NCBI GenBank assembly: GCA_956465555.1
Contig: OY101126.1
Coordinates: forward strand, 104,501-168,500
Length of the DNA stretch: 64,000 nt
DNA from: Nitzschia sp. pyKryTriq1
Taxonomy: Eukaryota; Bacillariophyta; Bacillariophyceae; Bacillariales; Bacillariaceae
Direction of reading: 5' to 3'
Shown one piece after another: positions 1,032 through 18,229 of the stretch. Every line of letters starts with the position of its first letter. Positions within the stretch are counted from its first letter, which is position 1. A program made the position numbers and the translations under genes. The notes beneath the pieces were generated by a model. The model ran no database searches, was not told the DNA's origin, and saw only the letters and a program-made list of their open reading frames with translations.

Positions 1032-1608
1032 TTATAGTCGTAGTAGTAGTAGTATGACGATCCTATCCTCTTTTGTCTTTTGGGTATAGCAAGAGAATAT
1101 TAAATGATGGATTCATTTATTCACTGCTCCTCAGCCTGATGTCAGCATAATGAGCACTCTGAGAGTCTCTGTAAAGAGTTGCGCTCCCTTGTTTTGCGGA
1201 AGACTTTCAAGTCTAAAGAGTTGCGTGGCGCTTGTCTGACTGCACAAAGAGGAGAAGCATCTACTACCCTGCAGGAATGAATACTTCTCTACTGCATCTA
1301 CTGCAGGAGTAGATTCTTTGCTCACAGTCTGAGAAGCATTATTCATCCCGAGGACCTCGGCCTTCAGTGGCAGTTTTCCCAATTGGTGTACTACGTACTG
1401 TACTTTGATTGGCATAGTTTTTAAAAGAGGTCTGTTTTCATCTACTGTACTTCTTTCAGCGACATGATCATCATGATGTCCAGATGTCTATACTTTTTCA
1501 GGACTATGTAGTAGATGGCTAGCTAACAGTACAATCACCAGCGAAGAGGACGACGACTCATCATGGTTCCACCAACAACCAACAAGGATCTCATTATCAT
1601 TATTGTTA
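1032..1608. other. intergenic region, no gene seen
   Basis: Convergent 3' regions of the methyltransferase (+) and the FBPase (-). Only short frames without recognisable domains are present. A TATTAAA-like AT-rich stretch lies at about 1097-1110. No tRNA or repeat was recognised. Confidence 0.5.
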
Positions 1609-3297
1609 TCATCCTTCATGTACTGTGTTCTTGAGATATCCTTCGAGTTCTTCCATATCTTGTGGACTTCCCATGAAACAAGGAGACTTTTGATGGATTC
1701 GTTTTGGCTTTTTATCCAACAAATTCTGTCCTTCTTCGTCCATGGCCTTGCCACCCGCATGATGTACGACAAAGGCCATGGGGGCAGACTTGTACAAGAG
1801 TTGCAAATTCCCCTTTGGTTTTTCCATCGAGTCGGAAGGATAGGCAAAGATGCCTCCGTACAAGAGCGTTCGATGAATATCGCCGACCATACTTCCCACA
1901 TATCGATGGGCATAACGAGTTTTGGTTTCCCCTTGACCCAATTTGAGATTGCGCAAGTATCGTCTCCATGGAGCATTCCAACCTTCGCTATTGGCCTCAT
2001 TGCAACTGTAGACGGTACCACGGGGTGGAATGGTAAGATTGTTGTGCGTCAAGACGAATTCTTGGATTTGAGGATCCAACGTAAATCCATACACTCCATT
2101 CGCCAAGGTAAATACCAGAACCGTGGCCGAACTGTACAAGCAATATCCGGCGGCTCTCATATTCCGTCCCGGTTGTAGTACTGCCTCCAGCAAGTCCTTT
2201 TCATCATGAATATCCTTAATGGTCGTCTCCTCTTTGGCGTTCTTGTTGTTGTTGTTGTGGTTGGCCTTGCTGTTGGTACTACCAGCCGTTCCTTCTTCCG
2301 ATGATGATGATGATGATTCTTCTTGTTGTATATCATTATTTTTCTTCTCCTTGTTCTTCTTTTGACGCGCAAAGACTCCAAAGACCGTTCCCGTACAGAT
2401 ACTCGCATCGGCATTGCCGGATCCATCGAGTGGGTCCAAACAGGCGACAAAATTCTCATCGTACGCTACCAACACTCCCGGCTGATGCTGTTGCGGCACC
2501 TCATGGTCCATTTGCGCATCGGGAGCAATCATTTGGACCGTCCCCGTAAATTTCAAGGCATTCTTCAACACATTGGTCGATAACTTGTCCAATCGTTTCA
2601 TGGAATAATACCGTCCATCACTGTAATTGGCCTGTTGACGTCGACGCCGACTCGTACTGGATCGACTACTAACAATAGTCGTACTACTACTTTCGGAAGG
2701 ATCTTTCTTCTTTCCGTCACTCCCTGCACCTCCTTTATCATCCTCTTCCTCCTCTTCTTCGAAATCATTTTGAATACTGTAGACCAGTCCGGCTCGATTG
2801 ACGAGATTGGAAATGGTCTTACAGCTGAGTTCCAAGGCCAATAAAATGTTTTGCAAATCTTGAAATTCGGGATGTTCCTTGACTTGATTGGAAAGAAAGC
2901 GACTCAATGTCACTCGAGTATTGGCATTATTATTATTGTAGCTGCTGCTGCTGCTGCTACTGCTGGAAGTAGTAGTAGTACTTGCTGTAGTAGACGAAGA
3001 AGAAGAAGAGGAGGAGGAGGAGGATACCGACAATGTGGTAACTGATGGGGTCGCATAGATTCGTCGTCTTGTTTTTGTCGTGGAATGCCAAAATGGTTTG
3101 GATGATGCGGGGCCTCGATGCGATGTTGTCGTCGTCGCTTTCGTCAATAGAAACCCTTCCACTGCTGCTGGTTGTTCGGACATCAGTTCTTGCCCGGCAA
3201 AAAGACACCACCAAACAAGGAGAAAAAAGCGTTGCATTCTGGTAGCAGTAGTAGTAGCACTAGCAGTAGTGCTGATGGTACTTCTTCTTTGTGTCAT
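1609..3297 (-). CDS. FBP: fructose-1,6-bisphosphatase, probably plastid-targeted
   Basis: Hydrolyses fructose-1,6-bisphosphate to fructose-6-phosphate in the Calvin cycle or gluconeogenesis. Family motifs: the metal-binding LDPLDGSGNADA block, QPGRNMRAAGYCLYSS, VGSMVGDIHRTLLYGGIFAYP split over the active site, and PMAFVVHHAGGKA near the C terminus. An ATG at 3297 gives 562 aa; a second in-frame ATG at 3237 (542 aa) starts directly with a hydrophobic signal-like stretch (MQRFFLLVWWCLFAG) followed by AAVEGFLL, resembling the diatom ASAF plastid-targeting junction, so 3237 may be the functional start. The frame extends upstream to 3339 only through a TTG. A low-complexity insertion of about 60 residues sits where plant plastid FBPases carry the redox loop and contains no cysteine. 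No intron is needed. Confidence 0.93.
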   Translation of the reverse strand: MTQRRSTISTTASATTTATRMQRFFLLVWWCLFAGQELMSEQPAAVEGFLLTKATTTTSHRGPASSKPFWHSTTKTRRRIYATPSVTTLSVSSSSSSSSSSSTTASTTTTSSSSSSSSSYNNNNANTRVTLSRFLSNQVKEHPEFQDLQNILLALELSCKTISNLVNRAGLVYSIQNDFEEEEEEDDKGGAGSDGKKKDPSESSSTTIVSSRSSTSRRRRQQANYSDGRYYSMKRLDKLSTNVLKNALKFTGTVQMIAPDAQMDHEVPQQHQPGVLVAYDENFVACLDPLDGSGNADASICTGTVFGVFARQKKNKEKKNNDIQQEESSSSSSEEGTAGSTNSKANHNNNNKNAKEETTIKDIHDEKDLLEAVLQPGRNMRAAGYCLYSSATVLVFTLANGVYGFTLDPQIQEFVLTHNNLTIPPRGTVYSCNEANSEGWNAPWRRYLRNLKLGQGETKTRYAHRYVGSMVGDIHRTLLYGGIFAYPSDSMEKPKGNLQLLYKSAPMAFVVHHAGGKAMDEEGQNLLDKKPKRIHQKSPCFMGSPQDMEELEGYLKNTVHEG

Positions 3298-3447
3298 TTT
3301 ACTACGTACTACTCGCACGCAAATCGAGTAGAAGGTCAAGTTTATTAATACGATACAGTAGTAGATGATGTAGTCTACTCTCGTTTGCCGCCGACCTACC
3401 GGTAATGATGATGATGATGATGATGATGATAATGCCCATTTCGCCCA

Positions 3448-3735
3448 TCATCCATCAGCATCCGATCCCCATCGTGAGGCACGCATTTTGTTGAACGTTG
3501 ACACTGGATCTTCCTTTTCGCGCGCTTTGAAGCACGCGTTGGTGTCAAAAGTCAAAACGACAGAAACGACCATGGCCTTCCACGTGGATGCAATGAATTC
3601 CCGGAGCACGTAGTACTCGTACGCGCACAATAGTACGGTACAGGAGACGATGCGTTCGAATGAGTCGCCGAGGAGGCCCAACGCAAAACCTGCAAAAATC
3701 TGCACGGCCATAATTATGCTTCTTCGGTTCATCAT
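3448..3735 (-). CDS. small putative membrane protein, uncertain
   Basis: A 95-codon frame with ATG start and two moderately hydrophobic stretches (about residues 8-40 and 50-62). Composition is not low-complexity, unlike most chance frames nearby. It matches no family I recognise. It could be the last exon of a spliced gene or a chance frame. Confidence 0.25.
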   Translation of the reverse strand: MMNRRSIIMAVQIFAGFALGLLGDSFERIVSCTVLLCAYEYYVLREFIASTWKAMVVSVVLTFDTNACFKAREKEDPVSTFNKMRASRWGSDADG

Positions 3736-3850
3736 GCATGAAGGATGTGGAAGAGAACCAAGATCGAAAACGCATACTCTTGACTTGGCTGCCTACGAGT
3801 TCCACAAGAATCACTCCTGAAAGGAAGAAGGGCGGACCTGCCACCCGACC

Positions 3851-4246
3851 ATGGCGAGGGTCGTCGACCGCACATTGGAAGACATAGAAGCTGGAAGAAA
3901 TGGAGGTCCGCCCGACCATAAAACTGTGCAACACGGTCCGCCAGACCAGATAAATGCGCGACGACCAAATGCACCGACTTCACCGTCGCCCACCATACCA
4001 ACTGCACCGACTTCACCGTCGACCACCACACCCCCAAATGCACCACAACCTGCACCTCAAACTGCACCTCAAACTGCACATCGAACCGCTCCAGCAACAC
4101 CACACCAAACAGCACCTCAAATAACACATCGAACCGCCCCGACAACACCACCACCTGCCACCCACACTCCACCAACTGCCCGCAATGCCACCACCCACTC
4201 CGTCACATGGATGGCAGATCAATTGCAAGGCACCCCCAGAGGGTAG
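3851..4246 (+). CDS. Pro/Thr-rich hypothetical protein with internal repeats, uncertain
   Basis: 131 codons from an ATG. The middle consists of degenerate repeats rich in Thr-Ala-Pro and Pro-Gln-Thr. At DNA level a unit of about 33 bp (gcaccgacttcaccgtcg core) is repeated at about 3968 and 4001, followed by shorter CCTCAAACTGCA-type repeats. It could be a mucin-like secreted fragment, a decayed gag-like region or non-coding minisatellite DNA; there is no signal peptide. The overlapping frames downstream to 4560 show no domain. Confidence 0.25.
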   Translation: MARVVDRTLEDIEAGRNGGPPDHKTVQHGPPDQINARRPNAPTSPSPTIPTAPTSPSTTTPPNAPQPAPQTAPQTAHRTAPATPHQTAPQITHRTAPTTPPPATHTPPTARNATTHSVTWMADQLQGTPRG

Positions 4247-4807
4247 CCAAGCCAACAAGTCAACCTCGGTATCGCAAATCCCAACTTCGGAATTCTAGAT
4301 TAATTAGCTTTAAAAACCCGCCCGCCATCCCTTCACACCTTGACAAGGACGAGGCAAGGAGATGTACCCAAGGGTATCCCCGAGAGAGGACGATCCTGCT
4401 ACGCAAATCGGAATCGATCAGGGGCATAGGCCAACGAATTATTTCACTAACAGTACTATACCATCGGTCTACAGTGTCCGAGAGAGTTGAGGGTTTGTTG
4501 GCGCCTGCGCCACGCGCAGGGCCTTCTTCACAAGACAAAGTTCGAATGAGTCGGCGATGATTCTACTACGGTATACGTACAATACACTGTTGGTACAGTA
4601 CCGGTACGCACTCGAGAGTACTGTAGAGAGTACTGTAGAGAGTACGTACGACTGTATGTGCTGTACCGGTCAGATACCGGTCTGTAAACACAAAAGATAC
4701 GGAACCGGTATCGATGACGACGAGAAGCTCTTCGTACTACTAATACTGTATGTACTAGAGTATGAGGGCGGCCGAAGAAGCATTTCGAGTGGCCGCATAT
4801 TCCGCAG
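4247..4807. other. intergenic region upstream of the GGT gene
   Basis: No gene recognised. Contains a GC-rich palindromic stretch near 4500-4520 (gcgcctgcgccacgcgc) and a direct repeat of GAGAGTACTGTA at about 4613-4640. Confidence 0.4.
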
Positions 4808-6925
4808 ATGCAGCACAACAAATATTTCCTAACAACAAGCACAAAAATGGGTTCGAAAATGATAACAAAACTGTTGTTGAATGCCATCGCCTTGGCGGTC
4901 TTGGTCCATGACGACACTCACGCTGCTGCTGCTGCCGCCGCCAATGATTTGACTCAGTCCGTTGCTACCTGCCGTGCTGCTAGTAGCAGTGGTAGTAACA
5001 GTGGTGGTGCCGGTATGATATCAACTGCTAACCCCACAGCCACTCAAGTCGGTCTGGCGATTCTCGAGGCGGGTGGAACGGCCGTGGATGCCATGGTTGC
5101 GGTCCAAGCCGTGTTGGGACTCGTCGAACCTCAATCTTCGGGACTGGGCGGGGGGTCCTTTGCGGTATATTTTGACGCCGCCACCGGTCAAACAACGACC
5201 TTTGATGGACGTGAAAAGGCTCCCTCGGCGGCGACCGAGGATCGGTTTGCGTCGTTTCCTCCTGGAACTCCAGGATTTGTGGGTGCCTGGCAGAGTGGTC
5301 TGTCGGTGGGCGTCCCTGGCACTCCCATGCTTCTCGAGGAAATGCTCAACCGATACGGCAGCCTTTCCTTTGCGGAACTGTTTGCCCCCGCCATCGAGTT
5401 GGCTATGAATGGATTTCCACTGGAGGCACGAACACAAAGTCAAGTGGCTATGCTTGCGGGCTTTATCAATCAAGGAAGCTGCGACAATCGTCTCTTTTTG
5501 CGCGATCCCACCGCCTTTGAGTATTTCTATGACGTGGACGATGATGGTGGTGGTGCTGGCGGAGAAAATATCACTTCTTGCACCATGAAACCTCCTGGCA
5601 CCACCTTGACTAACTCCGACTATGCCGCCACTCTTCTAGCAATGGTGGATTCTGGCTCGGACGCCTTTTACCGCGGGGAGATTGCGGCCGATATTGTGGC
5701 AGCGGTCCAAGGTGACTTGAGCATTCCTGGCGACATGACCGTCGCCGACTTGATGGCCTATCAAGTGGTCGAACGCAATCCTGTTTGTATCCCCTACAAG
5801 AAGAATGACTTCACTATCTGTGGCATGGGGCCACCATCTTCGGGTGGATTAACCGTCGGTCAAATGATGGGCATTCTGGATCAAGTAGTAGCAGTAAACG
5901 CGACGGGTGACGGCGGAGGCGGTCCACTGGATGCCGCCAATGTCCATTTATTCACTCAAGCGGGCCGACTCGCCTTTGCCGATCGTAATCTATACATTGC
6001 CGATCCGGATTTTGTAACCGTCCCTTCCGACGGCATGTTGGACCTGGACTATTTGGCAGAACGAGCCACTCTTGTGGACCCGAATAAAGATATGGGGACA
6101 GCCTTGCCAGGGAGCCCTCCAGGATTGGGTGGTAGTACCACTCGTTTGGCGGCAGATATCACCGATAAGAACACTGGAACGAGTCATGTGTCCATTGTAG
6201 ATCAATATGGAAATGCCGTTTCCCTCACATCGTCCATTGAAGCACCCTTTGGAAATAGTGTCATGGTCCGAGGCTTCTTTTTGAATAACGAACTGACCGA
6301 TTTTTCCTTTGCGGCCGCTGACGCCGAAACAGGAACTCCCATTGCCAATCGAGTCGAGGGAAACAAGCGTCCTCGTAGTAGCATGTCCCCGACGATCGTA
6401 TTGGATTCGCAGGGACTGCCCAAACTCTTGAGTGGGTCCCCCGGCGGAGCTCGTATCATTGCCTACACGGCACAATCGCTTTGGAATATGTTGGAGTTTG
6501 GTTTGGATCCCCAAGAGGCCATCAACATCCCCCATTATATGAACAACAATGGCGGAACCGAGTTGGAAGATCCAGCCTCGGCGGAGCAGCTGGTGCAGTA
6601 TGACGCATCCGCACTTCAGGCAGAATTGACAACGTCCTTTGGACACGCTGAGGTATCTATTTCGGATGCATTGACCAGTGGCCTGGCGATGATTGAGGTA
6701 ACCGACGAGTACTGGATTGGTGGAGCTGATCCGCGAAGAGATGGAGCTGTCGGCCCCGGAGAGGGAGTGGAATGCGGTGCGACCATGGCTCCAGCATCTG
6801 GACCTGGAATGCCGACCGACAGTCCCACTTCATCGGAGTCAAGTAGTATTGGAAAAACCAAAGGAACCTTTTCCGGCTTGGGGGTGATGGCATTGCTACT
6901 AGCAGCAGCAGCACTACTATATTAG
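4808..6925 (+). CDS. GGT: gamma-glutamyltransferase (glutathione hydrolase), secreted and possibly GPI-anchored
   Basis: Cleaves the gamma-glutamyl bond of glutathione and transfers the glutamyl group to water or amino acids; made as a proenzyme that self-cleaves before a catalytic Thr. The 705-aa single-exon product has an N-terminal signal sequence (ATG at 4808, alternative ATG at 4847), the large-subunit motifs GLGGGSFAVYFD and GVPGTPMLLEEM, the GPPSSGGLTVGQ motif, and the autoprocessing nucleophile Thr458 in GTSHVSIVD, with SMSPTIVLD and LLSGSPGGARI later in the small subunit. After the enzyme domain comes a Ser/Thr/Pro-rich stretch and a C-terminal hydrophobic tail (GLGVMALLLAAAALLY) without a basic cytosolic end, which looks like a GPI-attachment signal. 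AATAAA follows at 6952. Confidence 0.95.
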   Translation: MQHNKYFLTTSTKMGSKMITKLLLNAIALAVLVHDDTHAAAAAAANDLTQSVATCRAASSSGSNSGGAGMISTANPTATQVGLAILEAGGTAVDAMVAVQAVLGLVEPQSSGLGGGSFAVYFDAATGQTTTFDGREKAPSAATEDRFASFPPGTPGFVGAWQSGLSVGVPGTPMLLEEMLNRYGSLSFAELFAPAIELAMNGFPLEARTQSQVAMLAGFINQGSCDNRLFLRDPTAFEYFYDVDDDGGGAGGENITSCTMKPPGTTLTNSDYAATLLAMVDSGSDAFYRGEIAADIVAAVQGDLSIPGDMTVADLMAYQVVERNPVCIPYKKNDFTICGMGPPSSGGLTVGQMMGILDQVVAVNATGDGGGGPLDAANVHLFTQAGRLAFADRNLYIADPDFVTVPSDGMLDLDYLAERATLVDPNKDMGTALPGSPPGLGGSTTRLAADITDKNTGTSHVSIVDQYGNAVSLTSSIEAPFGNSVMVRGFFLNNELTDFSFAAADAETGTPIANRVEGNKRPRSSMSPTIVLDSQGLPKLLSGSPGGARIIAYTAQSLWNMLEFGLDPQEAINIPHYMNNNGGTELEDPASAEQLVQYDASALQAELTTSFGHAEVSISDALTSGLAMIEVTDEYWIGGADPRRDGAVGPGEGVECGATMAPASGPGMPTDSPTSSESSSIGKTKGTFSGLGVMALLLAAAALLY

Positions 6926-7225
6926 AGCGATCGCCATAAGTGGCACTACATAATAAATCCATTGCGTCTTTTGTCGATCTTTCTTTTGACCTCTTGCTGC
7001 TGCTGCTGCTGCTACCCGCGGTGCAACTAACTTCCGAGAAGATCATTTTGCACGTGTTCCGCATGAGGCTTCCAACAATGGATGCATCAGAATGTGAATG
7101 AAGATGCCGAAGAGAAGGTGGATTTGTTGAGTTGTAACTACTACTACTACTACTACTAGACGTAGCCCAACTAGTAGTAGTCGAGAGAGATTTTACTCCC
7201 TACTCTAGTAGTAGGGCTCCTCTTG

Positions 7226-10200
7226 TCAAATGAGCGACTTGGCCATAAACTCTTCGTAGCTTCCTCGAAAGAGCCGTCGTACATCTCGTCGAATTTCGGC
7301 ACGAGTGGGCAACCATCCCGATTCCAGCGATTTGGTGTATTCTTCGATCAAGACCCGAGCAATGACCGCTCGAGAGTGCGGCCATTTGTACAAGAGTTGA
7401 TCGACGACCCGTGCGTCACTATGCTGTGCCATAAAGGCAGTCCCCAACATTTCCACTCGCATCGTCGTGATTTCATGAATGATACTGGGATTGTTACAAA
7501 ACCTGCGAGATCAATAGGAAGAAACCAAGAAAGAAAAACAATTATTAGAATATCAGTCAATGGATTGACGAGGGTTGAGCATCGTTCCAGCAGGCCGCAG
7601 TCCTCGTCGCGATGGCTAAGAATACGATCGTACGTACCACCAGCAACCATACAGGAACAGATTGGTAAATTTCGAGGCCAAGACGCACGCTTCGTGTTGA
7701 TTGTTTCGCGACAAAAACGTGGCTAGGAATCGGACCTTGGGAAAGCGAGTACACAAGCGTGCCAACATGGTTCCATCACAAAACGCTACGACGCCATCTC
7801 CTGCCGCTTGGAGACGGGGATTGACTCCTCGATGAGCTCCAATCTTGAGAGCAATGGGTAGATCCCGTTCTTCGCAAATTTTCATCAAGACTTGACTCAA
7901 AAAGTCGGAATGCTCGTCGATCACGCTAGGAGCTTCGTCTTCGGCGCCATCACAACTACTAGACACATGGTCGGCCCCTCCAACCGAAGACATGGTGGCA
8001 AATGCCCCAGGTTGTTTCATGGCCTCTTGATTGAGACCCATCTTATTCTTGGGCATATTCGTTTTCGACAAAGATCCTGCTTGTTGAGCTGGTAAGACGA
8101 AATCATGAGGAGTCGATGCCATCATGTACTCCGGCTTCATGGTATCACACCAATCTCGCAGATATTGACGCGCCCCTTCCAATGTCAAGTCGTATCCCGA
8201 GGCCCGTAGCGTGGCTTCAATGGTCTTGCGATCTCCCGCTAGGAGTGGATCGACCCGTAACGCCGATCGGAATCGTTTCGAGTATTCGGTCGGCTTGGGT
8301 CTCCAATAACTCGCTTCTTGGCTATCGAATGGGATATTGGTCATAATGGCATACTCGATTCCAGATTGTCGAAAGGCCAATTCACAAAAATCGTGGGCCC
8401 CGCCATCGGGCCGATCCCGAAAGGATTGGTAGAATCGCCGAATAGCGTGTAAATCACGTTGGCCTACTTCGGCCGCAAGTCCGAGTCGACACAGGGTGGT
8501 CAAGACGCCCCGACATGCTTCCGAGAGCGGTGATCGATCGATAAAGAGTGCCTTCCAAATGATATCGGCTTGGTCTTGTTTGGATTTGGCGTAGAATCCT
8601 TCGGGTGTCATGGATGGCGGTGCGGTCATGAAATATTCAGCCACCAAATAGTGCTGCGGCGAAAAAAGTGGGAATGAAGAGAAGCAACAATCAGAGCAGC
8701 AGCATATGAGATGATAATTCAATCGATTCATTCATTCATCGATTCTTTCTTTCTTCTTTCGAATAATATAGACTGCGTGTACCAGTATGGTATTACAGTA
8801 ATGTACTACAGGTACTTACATACGTCAAGAGCTCATCAATTCCCCACAGACAGAGTGGACCATGAGTCGGTGGCAAGAGATGCGTGTGAAGATCGACGGC
8901 CACGACACTTTGGACTTCGTTTTCCACAACCGACGCCAACGCGTCAATGTTGGTTACTGGAAAAGACATTAATCGACTCGTGTCAGGAATGGAACATGGT
9001 TGGTAGTGAAGTAAGCGTAGTATTCCTCGCCTACTACTACTAGTAGTAGAAGCGGAAGTTGAAGAACAAGAAGATGGACTTACCACTGACGACGCAGACA
9101 AGGCACTACACGGAGTGGTAAATCCAATTCCTGCTGCTCCTGATGATGATGACGACGATGATGATGAAGGACTATCCAATTCTTGTAGCAATGCCAAGAG
9201 TCCATCTCCGGCAATCAATCGAGCATACAAGACGGCAATCGCTTGGACGAGATCATCAAAGAAGGCCGGTCGTGTTGTTTGGTTCGTGGCAATGCCACTC
9301 AAATTTCCACCTTGTTCGTGCAACAAGTACGTTTGGACCGCTTGGATACAATCACAAGGTTGGGAAGGAGAAGAAGAAGAAGACACACAGGCTTGAAGTT
9401 GTTCCACCAGTTCGGGCAGGGGACACTTGAACTCGTACCAGCCTTGTGTCAAGTCGTACCGCAATCCATCGGCGTATTCGACAGTCGTGGTAAAAGTAGT
9501 ATCGTCGTCGTCGTCGTCGTCGCCGGTAGTAGTAGTAGTAGTAGTAGGAACGGTCTTGGGATTGGCTCCCTCGAGCCATCCTCGATAGATTCCAGTAGGA
9601 CTTGCAGTGGAAGATGGAAGTGGAGTCAACCATCGGAGCAAGATGGCATAGGCCATGGCCAGAGATACTTGTGGGGTCGTGGCAGTAGTATTAGAAGTAG
9701 TCGTTGCTGTTCCATTGTTTTGTTGTTGTTGTTGTTGCATCATCAAATCCACTACGGTCGGACCCCATCGAATCCCTCCCTTGGCCGTTCCATTTTGAGT
9801 AATAAAAAAGGTACTCAATCCAAAATGAGGATGAATCAATCGTCGTCTCCAATCGTCCCATACCTTGACGCCTTCTTCATAGTACAGTGCTGATGATGTG
9901 GATGTGGATGTGGATGTTCCTCCTTTCTTCAAGGACGCCAAGATTTGATCTTGCACCAAGGCATCCAAATATCTCATAAAAATGGCGTTCTCGCCAGTAC
10001 TCGTACTCAAAACATCCGTTTGCAAATGTCCCAACAAGGCCAGGGCATGAGCAATAGCGGTATGCGTTCCATTGGCGATCCGTAATTTCAAGGCAATATC
10101 CTCTTGCAGTTGTTCTTGGGTCGTCCGACCAATCACACCCGGCTGTTGTAGTAATGCTGCGGGAAGGACGCCGCCGCCGCCGCCGCCAGCTTGTGTAGAA

Positions 10201-11278
10201 GAAGTAGAAGGAGAATCATTGCATAATATCACCAACGCTTTCATGGGCAATGGTTCACAACGAGGAACCATTCCATCGCTTCCAGGACGTTGAGAAGTGA
10301 TCCGATCGACCATGGTATCGCAAAAGACGACGTGGTGTTGTAAAAAGTCAGTCATTTTTGTCATTTTGTTGGTAGCAGCTGTAGCAGCAGCAGCAGCAGC
10401 AGCATATTCATGCATGTACGATTGCATCAAACTCCCATTATTCGGTACATTGTCCATGTCCAAGACGACCAATTTATTGCTGCTGCTGCTGTTGTTGCTG
10501 CTTCGTTGTGGTTGTTGTTGTTGTTGTTGTTGTTGTTCTTGTTGGTTTTGTAATTCACAAAGTACCTCGAGCAATTGATACAAATCCTTCATGGCTTGTG
10601 TATCCTTGCTCGCCAATCCAGCTTCGGTAACACCGACTCCTAGAATTGAAATCCTACTCCTTTATATATATATATGATTATGAGTAGTATAGTATTATGA
10701 ATGAGCGGATGAATGAATGAGTGGATGGATCGATGGATGGATGGATGGATAAATGGATGGATGAGTGTATGAGTGGATGGATGGATACGCAAGAGCAGTG
10801 CCCAAAAGACAAGACGGCGCATAATAGAAACAATGTTGCGTGTTACGTACCGCCCTCCTTGCTGCTGCTGCTGCTTCGATGATAATAAGAAATCAAAACA
10901 CGCTTGTTTGTCTTGTTCTTGCCCCAATGAAAAGACGGCTTGGATCGGAACTTGGGCCGTATCAATGGATCCATCCGGAAGGACCGTGTCGACCTCGTAC
11001 GTATTACTACTACTACTACTACGTTCGTACATGTACTCCATCATGGACCGACCTCTGGTTTGAATCAACCCCACCTTCATTCCGGCACCCACCAAGGCCG
11101 GGACCAAGACGCTCCGCAAAAAGCGGCCCGTGCCCAAACACAGTGCATTCATGTCGGTACCGGTACCGGTACCGGTATTCGAGACGCCGGAAGAGGTGCT
11201 ACTGCCGGATGATGATGATGCTGCTGATGATGGAGCATCATCAGCTACCCAATAATGAGGATGAGGATTCGTCGACAT
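7226..11278 (-). CDS. bifunctional uronate pathway protein: fructuronate/tagaturonate-reductase-like domain fused to uronate-isomerase-like domain
   Basis: Four exons inferred: 11278-10851, 10653-8820, 8653-7638, 7502-7226 (1,184 aa). Introns are 197, 166 and 135 bp with donors GTACGT, GTAAGT and GTACGT; all joins keep the frame and restore family motifs (GGR|ISILGVGVTEAGL, LLTY|HYLVAE, CW|WFCNNPS). Residues about 43-570 form a mannitol dehydrogenase family reductase: dinucleotide-binding LGTGRF (49-53), DNVPNNG, FCDTMVDRI, and catalytic Lys332, Asn337, His340 in KLRIANGTH. A Ser-rich linker follows. Residues about 725-1184 resemble uronate isomerase: metal ligands His732 and His734 in DLHTHLLP, WGIDELLTY, KIGAHRGVNPRL, and Asp1122 in QHSDARV. 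Expected chemistry is glucuronate to fructuronate to mannonate, or the galacturonate equivalents. Start chosen at the ATG two bases after a hexamer repeat; upstream in-frame ATGs exist. Poly-Gln, Ser and Thr insertions interrupt the reductase half. Confidence 0.85.
10654..10850 (-). other. intron 1 of the uronate fusion gene, with GATG-type microsatellite
   Basis: Donor GTACGT at 10850, acceptor TAG at 10656-10654. Between about 10696 and 10786 it is almost entirely a degenerate GGAT/GAAT tetranucleotide repeat, and a TATATATA run lies near the acceptor. The alternative acceptor CTAG at about 10641 would break the frame. Confidence 0.75.
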
Positions 11279-11322: not shown

Positions 11323-12476
11323 AGATGTTGACGTTGGCTATGCTGGAATGATAATAATGATAATGATAACAATGATACTCGTACTGTATGTAGATGGATA
11401 TCCGGGTAGATAGAGGAGGCGGACGCGCGGAGATTGCTGATGGCTGATGCTTCGTCATACAGTATTTTGGGATCTTATTCCGACCGACTTTTTTGTGGTG
11501 CTCTGCCGCTACACTGTAGTGTACTGGTGCCCAAAATGTGTGCAATTCGCAGGTACGGTAACAGGTACCAGTACCGTACCGTACGTGTTGCAGACTATCG
11601 GTACACGCGGAAGGACGGAATAGGCAAGTCAGTCAGTCATCAGTACCGGTACATTACGTGTAGAATATAAAATCACAAAACGGAATATAAAATCACAAAA
11701 CTACACGTCAAAAAGCGCCTTCTCAAGGCCATTGCACAAAAGCCTACAGTATGTACCGTACCACTAGGTATGTACGTACCGGTACTACAGTATGTATGTG
11801 TAGCATCAGGAGGCTCTTTTCGAGCCCGCCTTATTGTTGAATTATTTTAAAACTACATACCGGTATGGTACAGTACTTGTACGTTAGAGATAGCAAGTAG
11901 CCACGACACTTCGCCCCTAGTAGTAGCGATTACCGTAGAATGCAGTACCGGGCTCAAACTTTATCTTTTTTTGTGTTTTGATTGGCTCTTGGCGGTTTGT
12001 ACCAGAGTCTAGAGTAACCGTCTACGGTGTACGTGATCGAAGTGTCGTGAGCAAGCCTCAAGCCTCAAACGTCTGTCCTTCCATACGTACCTACGATCAT
12101 TCGCGCCAAAAAGATGATGATTCTTCTTCTGCCGTGCGTGGAATTCACAGTCTTTAGAGTACGAGTACGGTACGGTACGGTACGCTACTGTAGGAATCCA
12201 TACTGGAGGGGCATGCCTTGCGTGCGCGCGTGTAGAAAATGTACCAATTTTTACGTATCGCGAACCAATGCCGTGGCAACCAACAACAATCAATCATTGC
12301 ATCCATCTCATCTCATCTCTCTCTCTCCCTCCGACCTCCTCATATTCGCCCGACACTTGTTGTTGTTGTTGTTGCTGCTTTCGATCGATCTCTACTCTAG
12401 ACGACAAGTAATACTCGATAGTCAGTCATTTCATTCATTCATTCATTCATCCATCGATTCATCTACTTTTTTAGTC
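11323..12476. other. divergent intergenic region between the uronate fusion gene and the PDZ gene
   Basis: Probable shared promoter space. Rich in ACCGGTAC/GTACCGGT words. A perfect 18-19 bp tandem pair (gaatataaaatcacaaaac) lies at about 11664-11702. An ATTC tetranucleotide run sits at about 12430-12452, just upstream of the PDZ gene start. An open frame runs in from an ATG at 12114, but its first 121 codons have no protein-like features. Confidence 0.5.
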
Positions 12477-13882
12477 ATGGTGGTGATTGTGAATCCGTAC
12501 TTGAAGAAAAAGCCGACGACGGCGACGGCGGCGACAAAACCCAATAATACGGGCAGAAATTCCAATGCTGGTGGTGGTGGTGGTGGTGGGGCAGCCCTGG
12601 CGGGGATGACGCGGCCAATACCAACTAAGACAAGTATCAATACCAGTACCAGTATCAGTAGGGCTGCAGCGGGGGCTACCAAGCCATCCTTTGTAACGCC
12701 CGCCAAGAGCAAGAGTGTGGGTATGGGTATGAGTATGGGTACAAGTCGACCTACTACTAGTACTAGTACCGGTACTACTAGAAGTGTCGTTGCTGTGACT
12801 CCAGCAGCCGCTTCGTCGTCCACTCCCAAGAAGCCTCGCCCTACTACTACTACTACTGCTGCTTCTACCGCTACTAGTAGTAGTACTACTCGTACCACCA
12901 CCACCACTACTACTAGTAGTACTACTACTAACAAGCCTTGTTTGACGTTGAAACAAAAATTAAAACAAGAAATTGCCGCCTTGAAGAAACAAAAGCAGCT
13001 GATGCAACTTCAAAAGGAAGCCCAAGCCCGACGTCAAGTCGTCGCACAAGAACGGGCCGAAAAAGAACGACAACGTCAACAACTACTACAACAACAGCAA
13101 CAAGAACGACTACAGCAACAACAAGCCAAACAAGCCTTGTTGGAAGCTCAACGTCAACAACGACTGGAAGAAAAACTAGCGGCACAAGAAAAAAAACGAC
13201 AAATGCAACAAGAAAAGGAACGATTGGTGGCAGAACGTTTGCAACAAGAAAAGGAAGAATATCAACGAGCCTTGATTCAATATCAACAAGATACGGCCGC
13301 GTATCAAGTACGTCATGCGCAGTGGATCCAACAACGTCAAGCATGGATAATGCAGATGCAGCAGCAGCAGCATCATCAGATGCAAATGCAGCATCAGATG
13401 CAGATGATTCCAATGCAGATGCACATGCAACCAATGCAACCAATGCAACCAATGCAGATGCACATGCAACCAATGAGGTTGACGCAACCGCAACCGTTTG
13501 GTACTACTACTACTACCGGTACTACTAGCAGCGTACCAAGAAATCATCATCATCAGCAGCAGCAGCATGAGCAGCAGCAGATGCAGTACTCCTCGTATCA
13601 TCCACATCATCATGGCATTGACAGTAATGGTAGTGGTGGCAGCAGCGGGGGTGCCGGGCCTTGTTGGCAAGAAAGAGGACAAGGACAAGGACAAGGACAA
13701 GGACAAGGACAAGGACAAGGACAAGGACAAGGACAACCACCACCACCACCACCAAGTGTCGCCGCCAATACTGAAGATGTTACTCCTGCTCCAACTGATG
13801 GTGGTTCTGGTGCTGACAACGCTTCTTGTCTGCGGGAGGATACAAGTACCGGTAGTAGTACAAACCAGGATGTACCAAGACT

Positions 13883-13913
<31 letters not shown>

Positions 13914-16900
13914 GCCAGTATCTCATCCACACCAGAAGCAGCAGAAGGAGCAGCAACAGCAGCAGCAACAGCAGCAGCAGCCGCACCGATCGTGCCAAAG
14001 TTGGAGGAGGAGGAGGAGGAAAAGAATCGTCCAAGTACAACAGCAACACCAGCACCAGCAACAGCACCAGCAACAGCAACGCCAGCGCTGCCTACTGTGC
14101 TGCCTTCTTTCGATTCTTCTTCGATGCAGGTCGACGATGACGACGACGAAGCGGATCCAAACAAGAAGGACAATGCTGTGAACACGAATGATGAGGATCC
14201 AGACGCACTAGCACCAGCACCATCGACCGTTCCCTCGTCGGCTTGTTCAGCATTGGATGTTGGTGGCGGTGGTTCCGACGAGAAGAATACGGTCATGGTG
14301 GTGAATCAGCATCATCATCAAGAATCATCTTCGAGAGGAGCGCCGTCGGTGGATCCTCCCCAAGGCTTGATCCTAGTACCACCACCGCCACCATCTCCAT
14401 CCATTGTTGGTTCTTCTTCTTCTTCTCCTTCTTCGGCGCCAACACCACCCACAGTGGGTGACTTTGCTGGAGGGAAGAGCACCTTCAACAACAACCATCC
14501 TCCTCCAGCAGGAGCAGCATCAGCAATGCTGTCGGCTGGACCACCGCCCACGGTGACGTCCTACTACCCACCGCCACCACCACCACCACCACCACCACCA
14601 GCCATGATGACGCACCACCAACAGCAGCACCAGCAGCAGCAGCAGCAGCCGCAGCCGTACTTTTATTCTCAAGGACAACCGCCGGTGCCGGTACCGCCGC
14701 CGCCGCCGCCGCATCATCTGCTGCTTGCCAACAACAACAGCACCGTGGCGAGAATGATGCAGCTCATGGCGTACATGCCGCAGAGCTTGAAGATTCCACC
14801 GTTTCCTCCGATTCCACCCAAGATGCCCAAGAGTCTACGACCTTCCACGGCCAACAACAACAACAATAATAATAACAACAACAACAACAACAGGGCGCCC
14901 CCGAAACCCAAAGTAGTAGTACCAGCGACCATGGGGCATCCCTTGGAAGCACCTTCGCCGTATCGATCGACCCATGTCCTTGTGGCCCAACCCATTACGC
15001 TTATTCGACGAGCCAAGGATCAACCGTCATTTGGAGTCAATCTTCAAGCCATTACGACGAGTTTTTTGGTAGATCCTAATTCTTTTGACAAGAACAAGAA
15101 CAACAACAGCAACAGCAACAAGAAGAGTGATACTATTAACAAAAACAACAACATCAACACACACCACCATGCGGCCACTCCATCGGCTGAGGCTTCGACT
15201 GCGACGACGACGACGACTTCGTCTATGGCTCAAGAAACGACGGTTCCAAAAGAAGCAGCCACTCCTGGCGCCTCGAGTCCTCTTGCAGCAGCAGCAGGAG
15301 CAGCAGGAGGAGGAGGAGCACTTCCTTCCAGCCAGTCCGCGGCCAATCCTCCTACCAATGATGCCGATACTGCTACTGTCCTCCCCGAATCATCTCCATC
15401 ATCCAAGGATGCGGTTCCCGAGGAATCATCATCATCATCCTCCGCTCTGGTTATGAAGGACAAGGAGGTCGCAAGCAGTCCGCCGTCCGCTTATTCCGCA
15501 ACGCCAGTCGTTCTCTCCAACCAACAACAGCAGCAGCAACAACAGCAGCAACAGTCCATCATCACTGACGCTGCTATGCGTCGACGGCAACGTCGCCGTC
15601 GCATCAACTTTACGGTCATGATGGTGATGGATGCGGAAAAGCAAAATCGGCGTTGGGAGGAACGCAAGCAGCAGGCCGAGAACATCAGCAGCAAGGAAGA
15701 ATCATCGACAACGACAAGAACAACAGCAACAGCAACAGCAACAACAGCGGCGGTCGTCAAGACAGAAGAGGAGGTACCGCGTGACGATGCCGGATTTACA
15801 TCCGACGATAGCTCGACGGCGAGTCCTCGTAAGGTTCCTCCAGCAGTGGTAGCTCGCAAGACTTTCGAAAAGGACGAGGAACCTCCGATGCTACTGCAAC
15901 CTGGAGATATTGTCATTTCGATCGGTGGCGTCAGCGTTGCGGGTATGACGTTCTCTCAAGCCTGTCGTGTCTTTGCGGAAAAGTCTGTCATCAAGACGAT
16001 TGCTACTGGTACTGGCGATGCCAGCCAAGACGACGTTTCCGAGGTTCAAGCCACGTTGGTGATTGCCCGGAAGAAATCAGTCCCAGTATTTTCTTCAATG
16101 CTGATGCCGACGACCACCATTCCAAAGCAAGTCTCGGTCAAGAACGAACAATCATTGAACTCTTCAACTGCACTGGCTGGAGCAGTAGCAACAGGCCCTG
16201 ACGTTCCTCGTGCGTTGCTGTATCCAAGTATTCTGGCATTGCCTGCGAATGCTTCCTTGAGCTTTTCTCCCGCTGAAGTTGCTGTCCTTGCTGATTGTGT
16301 CATTCAAGCCGTCCACGATCATCCCAAAAGCCGATTGCTGGGGCAAACGCTTTCCGCGGCAGTGCTCGAAAATAGCACGTCCATCTTTCGCCGAGTGGCC
16401 AGTTTGAAGGAATGTGTCTTGAGCCACCGAAGCACTGACGTTCTCTTTGCAAAGTGGTCTCAACTTTGTCAGAGCCTGAGTCTTGGATTGGCCGAGCGCG
16501 GACGTGCCAGCTGGACCAAACAAGCATTGTTGCTGGAAGCAGCAGCCTCCTCGAAGCAGGACAGCGATGCCAGCAATAATATGGAAATGAATGCCCTTGC
16601 CTTTTCGTCGGATGCCGAACGCACGGCCTTGCGTCAACTTCCAAGACCTTCCAAGGGATGCCGATGCCAACGTCGTGACCACGAATTCCTTCATGATGTC
16701 CGATGTACCTTGTATCGTGATGTCAGCCGTTTCCTTCCCAAAGAGGAATTACAAGAACTACAGTATGATCCTACTCAAGTCGGCAACGGAAATGGTGGCA
16801 GCAAGTCCAAATCCAACAATAGCAACCACAAGGATCTGAATACTGTCGAGGCGGCGTTTAAAGATCGCATGGTCAAACTCAAGACGGCCGCCGAGATGGA

Positions 16901-18229
16901 ACAGGCCGAAGCTCGATTCGTCGCGGCAATGGAAGAGATTCAGGTGCAACGACTCCGAAAGGCTATCTTTGCGCCCAATCTGACTTCGATGGTCATGTCG
17001 ACGATTCTGGAATTGCAACGTGAATTCCCTGTATCAACCAAGAGTCGTCGTCACGCCATGGATGTAGATGGTGATGATTCGGATGATGAGGAGGAAGACG
17101 AAGACGAAGATGTGGCTGACAAAATGACTTTGTCGGGAAAGCGAAAGCATAATTCAGGAGCTGACAAGAAGTCTTCGAAAAAGTCCAAGGAAAAAGGAGT
17201 CCAAAACTTGAACTTCAAGTATCTTATGCGGATGGTGCAACATATTGGGAAGACATGGGGACATGTTTATCGGGAGCCTTCCCACGAAGATTACGCATGG
17301 TACGTTCAAGTCTAGGTTCGATTTTTTTTTGGGTTGCGGTAGGAACCTTGAGAATGAATCCCTCACTCGCCACTCACGTATTTCCGAATTCTTTATCGTC
17401 GTCTCTTTTGTCTCGTAGGCGCTGGGAATTGTTCCATGGCCACAACTCGGAAGGGGCCGAGTGGGAAGCTCATTCGACCAATCCTCGCGAGCCCGACGCA
17501 CTTTCCTTTGAGTACGTTCGTTATGGAATGAAGGCATTGGACAAGAGCTCGGCGTCGAAACTGGCGGCGGCCAGCAAGGCGATTGCCGACTTGGAAGATG
17601 CGCTCCAATCCGAGCTGCTAGAGCAACGGATGCCAGCACCAGGCGTAGTCAGCAAGCCTGCATCACCAGTCGACGACGGTTCTTCAAAGCCGATGGACGT
17701 AGACGAATCTAGTGCTCCAACAACACTTGGAACTGAAAATGATGATGCCAAGCCTTTGCCCTCCACAGATCCTTCCTCTATTGTCAGCAAGGCTCGCTTG
17801 GATGTTTCCGAGGAAACAGTCGAGCAATTGTGTCTTGCAGCCTACTTGTTGTCTCCGGCCTCGTCGGGTCTCTACGATGAATTGCTTGCTCTAGTTCACA
17901 TGGGAGTATTGGAAATTTCTTCAAGCACTGGAATTCCCTTGGTCGCCGAAGATTGGGCTTCCAAGATTGATTTTGTCGTTTTGGAAGATATGGATGGCGC
18001 TTGGGGCACCGAAGCGGACCCTGACGGTCGATTTTGTATCCATCCTGACATGCGGGATGCATTGGAAGAGGAGTGGGTCAAGACTTCCAATGGGGGCTGG
18101 GCGTTGGCCAGTGATCCGGAGGATGTTATTTTCGACCCCGATGTCTTGGAAGAGTGGCGTCAATTCTTCCAAGGGCAACTGGAAGAAAAGGCGAATATCT
18201 CTGAAGGCATTGGTCGTTTCGGATTGTAA
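12477..18229 (+). CDS. large Gln/Pro-rich protein with an interrupted PDZ domain
   Basis: Two exons, 12477-17299 and 17419-18229 (intron 119 bp, GTACGT...CGTAG), giving 1,877 aa; the join yields DYAW|RWELFHGHN. The ATG at 12477 is preferred over the in-frame 12114 because the extra stretch resembles UTR. Order: Thr/Ala-rich basic N terminus; Gln/Glu coiled coil (about 155-290); Met/Gln/His and (Gly-Gln)n repeats; Pro-rich middle; first half of a PDZ-like fold (PSFGVNLQ, about 845-860); about 270 residues of Asn/Ser/Gln low complexity; second half (LLQPGDIVISIGGVSVAGM to ATLVIARKK, about 1137-1200); then a conserved-looking non-repetitive C-terminal half with a Cys-containing segment (CRCQRRDHEFLHDVRC), an acidic stretch and basic NLS-like KRK/KKSSKKSKEK. 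Probably a nuclear or cytoplasmic scaffold; no enzyme motif. Function unknown. Confidence 0.8.
13675..13736 (+). repeat. (GGACAA)n coding hexamer repeat
   Basis: About ten near-perfect GGACAA units encoding Gly-Gln dipeptides inside the PDZ-protein gene. Likely length-variable. Confidence 0.95.

Follow-up and report, generated by a model that had tools for sequence, protein, structure and literature searches.

The enzyme Bh0493 of Bacillus halodurans reportedly isomerises D-galacturonate to D-tagaturonate, going by the title of a 2008 paper by Nguyen et al. In the accessible part of a 2019 review, the isomerase route of hexuronate breakdown is presented as bacterial, and fungi, animals and plants are described as starting uronate handling with aldehyde reduction (PMC6353982). 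Fusions of consecutive enzymes are on record for diatoms: the available part of one study reports three such fusions in Phaeodactylum, some of which may be cleaved post-translationally (PMC2173943). Here we analyse a gene in a 64,000-nucleotide stretch of contig OY101126.1 of Nitzschia sp. pyKryTriq1 (hereafter the window), the predicted product of which carries a dehydrogenase-type half in front of a Bh0493-type isomerase half. We consider it probable that the product of this nuclear diatom gene is a bifunctional enzyme, predicted here from sequence, that would convert a uronate to an aldonate. A diatom enzyme joining the first two steps of the isomerase route would bring that route to a photosynthetic eukaryote, and it hints at a uronate pathway that the review, in the part seen, does not describe for eukaryotes.

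Both enzymes lie on one open frame read from genomic DNA. An earlier note on this DNA had called the locus a single-gene fusion with the reductase followed by the isomerase, and the gene model bears this out: one 1184-aa frame runs over four exons, the second of which is free of stops. Exon 2 (1834 bases) covers most of the reductase and the Ser-rich linker and continues through the first 50 isomerase residues; its coding frame has 0 stops, the other two frames on the same strand have 22 and 25, and none of 20000 first-order Markov simulated sequences of this length stayed open. Among 20000 simulations of the 174-base linker alone, 7.6% had no stop, so its open frame is supportive without being proof by itself. 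Intron 1 may end at any of three usable AGs spaced 3 nt apart, which place the start of exon 2 at 10659, 10656 or 10653 and give a protein of 1184-1186 aa; the 1185-aa form supplied the query sequences for our searches. The start at 10653 reproduces every residue number in the earlier note, namely LGTGRF at 48, K332, N337, H340, H732, H734 and D1122. Taken together, these data confirm, at the level of gene prediction, that the reductase half and the isomerase half are joined in one product.

The linker also holds a possible cryptic intron (8957-9083, minus strand; GTAAGT ... TGTCTTTTCCAG) that would extend into the start of the isomerase. Its GTAAGT donor at 9083 faces a pyrimidine-rich AG that ends at 8957, and its 127 nt compare with 135-197 nt for the modelled introns. 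Excising it would produce a stop at residue 667, which speaks against a single bifunctional product and makes a reductase-only isoform possible. The locus might accordingly give two products: a reductase truncated within the linker by a cryptic splice or by polyadenylation, and an isomerase that starts at Met705, the counterpart of residue 1 in Bh0493 chain 2qee, and is expressed from an internal promoter. We judge this decidedly unlikely. There is no in-frame stop between the halves, so a separate reductase would require either the cryptic splice or early polyadenylation; the cryptic splice would itself remove Met705 and put the isomerase out of frame, and an intact isomerase from that same transcript is not possible under this splice prediction. 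A single protein with both halves is the reading that we carry forward.

Compared with solved structures (phmmer), the isomerase half matched Bh0493 with E = 3.7e-100 (residues 1-235 and 243-416 of 2qee), at 45% identity in the alignment and with homology along the full length; a weak match was found to the amidohydrolase 4i6v (E = 5.4e-10). Residues H732, H734, H755, Y756, D1122 and R1124 of the fusion correspond to H26, H28, H49, Y50, D355 and R357 of Bh0493, which we take to be its metal and catalytic residues. Scanning bacterial and archaeal genomes with the isomerase half gave 311 relatives, and all counts given here refer to the best 80 of these. The D-x-H-T-H, Y-H-Y and H-S-D-x-R columns are identical to those of the window protein in all 80.

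The earlier assignment of a uronate-type isomerase is thus upheld by the match to Bh0493, although the Pfam profile suggested for checking it failed in the literal sense: PF02614 (UxaC) matched neither the fusion protein nor anything else in the genome. The same profile also missed all four bacterial Bh0493-type relatives that were tried (L020, L041, L024 and L004), so that its miss does not refute the isomerase identity; we dropped it as a criterion of membership and took the solved Bh0493 as the yardstick instead. The Bh0493-type group seems to fall outside the PF02614 model, as far as the four bacterial relatives indicate (Bh0493 itself was not run). Because Pfam matched 0/4 and NCBIfam 0/2 of the Bh0493-type isomerases tested, such enzymes may escape automatic annotation. 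The comparison with Bh0493 supports the C-terminal half as a uronate-type isomerase of this group, with a predicted activity. No second copy of the isomerase half was found in the genome at E ≤ 0.001, none of the plasmids searched matched it at 1e-5, and viral contigs yielded no confirmed relative.

In an 82-row isomerase tree, the window protein clusters with six planctomycete rows (support 100/99) on an end branch of 1.74, the longest in the tree (next 1.05), and the tool flagged this placement as unsure. The isomerase half was likely acquired by transfer from bacteria. Bacterial contamination was ruled out by the three modelled introns, the homopolymer insertions, the 1.65 Mb contig and the silicon transporters in the assembly. 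The transporters occupy eight loci, seven of them at E ≤ 3.7e-262, and because we take this family to mark diatoms, we treat the assembly as that of a diatom, in agreement with the host proposed earlier.

Neighbouring frames were clustered within 5 kb of each bacterial isomerase, with 3 kb on both sides available at 47 of the 80 loci. A UxaE-like gene adjoins the isomerase in six loci, a UxaA-like gene lies near it in four and UxaB in three. At least 9 of the 80 loci have a UxaB-, UxaA- or UxaE-like neighbour, a lower bound because only those 47 show 3 kb on each side. A family check of the neighbour clusters was made on one UxaE, one UxaA and all three UxaB. The clearest arrangement, a compact galacturonate-type run of uxaB-uxaA-uxaE-Bh0493-type isomerase, spans 1314-7245 of locus L023 in a Bacillota metagenome-assembled genome. 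Reductases of the superfamily occur near the isomerase in only 3 of the 80 loci, all three scoring above the UxaB cut-off. A fusion was found in none of the 80 relatives; 75 of the isomerase frames, measured between stops, fall below 500 residues, the metal motif of the five longer ones starts no more than 217 residues in, and some bacterial isomerase frames reach the contig end.

The N-terminal half had been called a uronate reductase, a label of which the superfamily part stands and the uronate-specific part finds no backing in the profiles. The motifs GxGxF-R, TE-x-G, DN-x-P-x-NG, VDRI and K-x4-N-x2-H are aligned in this half, and K332, N337 and H340, which we take to be the catalytic motif, align with all 10 superfamily sequences compared. 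A profile built from nine members of the superfamily (E. coli UxaB, UxuB and YeiQ, three neighbour UxaBs and three diatom frames) scores the half at 45.7 bits; the best score among 1000 shuffled and 1000 block-permuted copies is 12.5 bits, and the reversed sequence gives -2.9. PF01232, one of the two Pfam profiles named for checking this half, matches marginally (28.1 bits, cut-off 27). We therefore accept as true, on sequence comparison, that the half is a divergent member of the mannitol/uronate dehydrogenase superfamily, of uncertain subgroup. Close kin were not found among the bacterial loci, plasmids and solved structures searched: the best solved structure gives a chance-like E = 0.17, the superfamily member 4im7 gives E = 0.52, and plasmids gave no match at E ≤ 10. 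A PF08125 scan, run on the genomes from which 12 of the 80 loci come, found matches in two (L106-L108), none of them near the window protein (best 5.8 bits). Nor did the genome contain a second copy of the reductase half at E ≤ 0.001.

Several results count against the bifunctional reading. The second of the two Pfam profiles, PF08125, is not reported for the fusion at E ≤ 10, although K-x4-N-x2-H and the blocks downstream align despite this miss; the NCBIfam tagaturonate reductase model (UxaB) reaches 26.6 bits against a cut-off of 359, and the fructuronate reductase model (UxuB) is not reported for the half; 71 of the 80 bacterial isomerase loci have no uxa-type neighbour; and an AlphaFold prediction of residues 144-660 plus three relatives gave a pLDDT of 34.5 and was not used. 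We nevertheless infer the name uronate reductase, with ketouronate as its substrate, because the half is fused to the isomerase and a few bacterial operons include uxaB.

An alternative is that the isomerase half acts on uronates and the reductase half on another polyol or ketose of the mannitol/arabinitol type, or that the latter is an inactive structural partner. The subgroups are about equidistant, with 17.6-20.0% identity to the nine profile members, 16.5% to MtlD and 21-23% between the exon-2 part and three UxaBs, and no subgroup is clearly preferred. The best NCBIfam model is D-arabinitol dehydrogenase (DalD; 31 bits, cut-off 600), a diatom frame resembling mannitol dehydrogenase was the top single relative when a few were compared (13.1 bits), and the motif LDMDNVPNNG resembles the form found in MDH, UxuB and YeiQ more than that of UxaB. 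We nonetheless hold this reading to be unlikely, given that K332, N337, H340, G-x-G-x-F, TE-x-G and VDRI are all retained, that the fusion to a uronate isomerase and the three loci with uxaB beside the isomerase point to a ketouronate substrate, and that three further genome loci with strong Mannitol_dh_C matches could do polyol work. A bifunctional uronate-to-aldonate enzyme remains our preferred reading, and the features of its gene are collected in Table 1.

Table 1 Coordinates of the fusion gene and its parts within the window (all on the minus strand; residues numbered with exon 2 starting at 10653).
Feature	Position	Strand	Description
Whole gene	11278-7226	minus	Four exons joined at GT-AG sites, one 1184-aa frame
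Exon 1	10851..11278	minus	Met1, Ser/Thr-rich N-terminus, Rossmann start LGTGRF (residues 48-53); PF01232 match begins at residue 43
Intron 1	10654..10850	minus	197 nt, donor GTACGT, three in-frame AG acceptors
Exon 2	8820..10653	minus	Remainder of reductase, Ser-rich linker, isomerase N-terminus with H732-x-H734; no in-frame stops
K332-N337-H340 motif (KLRIANGTH)	10062..10088	minus	Motif of long-chain polyol/uronate dehydrogenases; aligned
Linker	8976..9149	minus	Residues 645-702, Ser-rich, open frame, candidate cryptic donor GTAAGT at 9083
Isomerase start	8820..8969	minus	Met705 aligned with residue 1 of Bh0493 chain 2qee, then H732-T-H734
Intron 2	8654..8819	minus	166 nt, donor GTAAGT
Exon 3	7638..8653	minus	Bulk of isomerase, H755-Y756, insertion of >50 residues relative to Bh0493
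Intron 3	7503..7637	minus	135 nt, donor GTACGT
Exon 4	7226..7502	minus	FCNNP stretch, H-S-D1122-A-R1124 motif, C-terminus, TGA stop

Two open frames on the plus strand flank the gene. One of 719 aa (4766-6925), presumably gamma-glutamyltranspeptidase-like, converges on it with about 300 bases between the stops. The other, of 1754 aa (12051-17315), is divergent from it and is rich in runs of Gln, Pro, Ser, Thr and Asn, which are similar to the single-residue runs within the fusion. Elsewhere in the genome, two frames with strong Mannitol_dh_C matches, L085 and L087 (C11:264573-267440), sit on one strand less than 3 kb apart, possibly as a tandem pair.

In the bifunctional enzyme that we propose, the C-terminal Bh0493-type domain would convert D-glucuronate to D-fructuronate (or D-galacturonate to D-tagaturonate), and the N-terminal dehydrogenase domain would use NAD(P)H to reduce the ketouronate to an aldonate (D-mannonate or D-altronate). 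The ketouronate would be handed between the linked domains, an arrangement that would help transfer of the intermediate and pull the reversible isomerisation forward. The earlier note suggested glucuronomannan or alginate as a possible origin of the uronate; an internal substrate could instead be D-glucuronate from myo-inositol oxygenase (MIOX), a plausible source inside the cell; the genome has a MIOX match (L088, C5:2104414-2105061, E = 3.7e-72). Further on, the aldonate may be turned into 2-keto-3-deoxygluconate and then feed the aldolase of 2-keto-3-deoxy-6-phosphogluconate (KDPG), for which the genome also has a match (E = 6.8e-29). The activity, substrate, product stereochemistry, channelling and localisation, and all downstream steps, are what we infer for the fusion.

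The steps after the aldonate provide further points that tell against this proposal. Neither UxuA (PF03786) nor UxaA (PF04295) was found in the genome in six frames at E ≤ 0.001, an absence that is provisional because six-frame searches can miss a multi-exon gene; each search matched in 5 of 14 control genomes. The aldonate is thereby left without a recognised next enzyme. Three enolase-superfamily matches were found, L089 above the cut-off and L091 and L090 below it (L090 at 26.4 bits); inspected by eye, the sole match above the cut-off resembles a glycolytic enolase. L089 and L091 were accordingly set aside as leads, both being read by eye as enolases. The ILVD/EDD family is represented by a single locus, matched in three pieces, that may encode either DHAD or EDD. 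In the part of PMC10847513 available to us, no KDPG was detected in the eukaryotes tested, which include green algae and among which no diatom is named; this weighs against a KDPG route in general. The same part argues that the Entner-Doudoroff dehydratase is missing from eukaryotes and, without settling what their KDPG aldolase does, looks for alternative functions of it.

The failure to find either dehydratase also fits a biosynthetic role, in which the ketouronate would be reduced to L-galactonate or L-gulonate, toward ascorbate. Interconversions of L-galactonate with tagaturonate and of L-gulonate with fructuronate exist in bacteria, where they run on other dehydrogenase families. Direct D-galacturonate reductases would offer a simpler path, and no result indicates the stereochemistry of the product. 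According to the accessible part of PMC4396506, ascorbate synthesis in stramenopile algae probably runs via D-galacturonate. On balance we regard the biosynthetic role as very improbable. There is likewise only a slim chance that an L-aldonate, in place of D-altronate or D-mannonate, is the product, which would be a previously unknown step in a diatom uronate-to-ascorbate route; if true, it would explain a genome without a recognisable mannonate or altronate dehydratase. The reading with a D-aldonate product is the one that we compare below, and it would make the fusion a testable supply line for the diatom KDPG aldolase.

Set beside known systems, the isomerase half is closest to Bh0493 (PDB 2q08, 2qee, 3hk5 and others), which it resembles along its full length, at the identity given above and with the same metal and active-site motifs; it differs in being eukaryotic, in its modelled introns, in the reductase placed in front, in the insertion of more than 50 residues and in its long end branch. 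The reductase half shares with UxaB, UxuB and other long-chain mannitol/uronate dehydrogenases (PF01232/PF08125) the signature motifs that align along the fold, including K-x4-N-x2-H, whereas its low identity, its many homopolymer insertions, the missing PF08125 match and the failure to reach any NCBIfam cut-off set it apart. The bacterial uxaB-uxaA-uxaE-isomerase run of L023 likewise encodes both activities together, but as separate genes. No report of a reductase-isomerase fusion was seen among the titles listed in the open-licence PMC literature. The TPI-GAPC3, UGP/PGM and G6PDH/6PGDH fusions of diatoms place two consecutive steps in one protein, as is predicted for this gene, although they are enzymes of central carbon metabolism and no uronate pair is named in the part of that source seen (PMC2173943). 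By this comparison, the fusion architecture is already known in diatoms, and its predicted application to uronates is new here.

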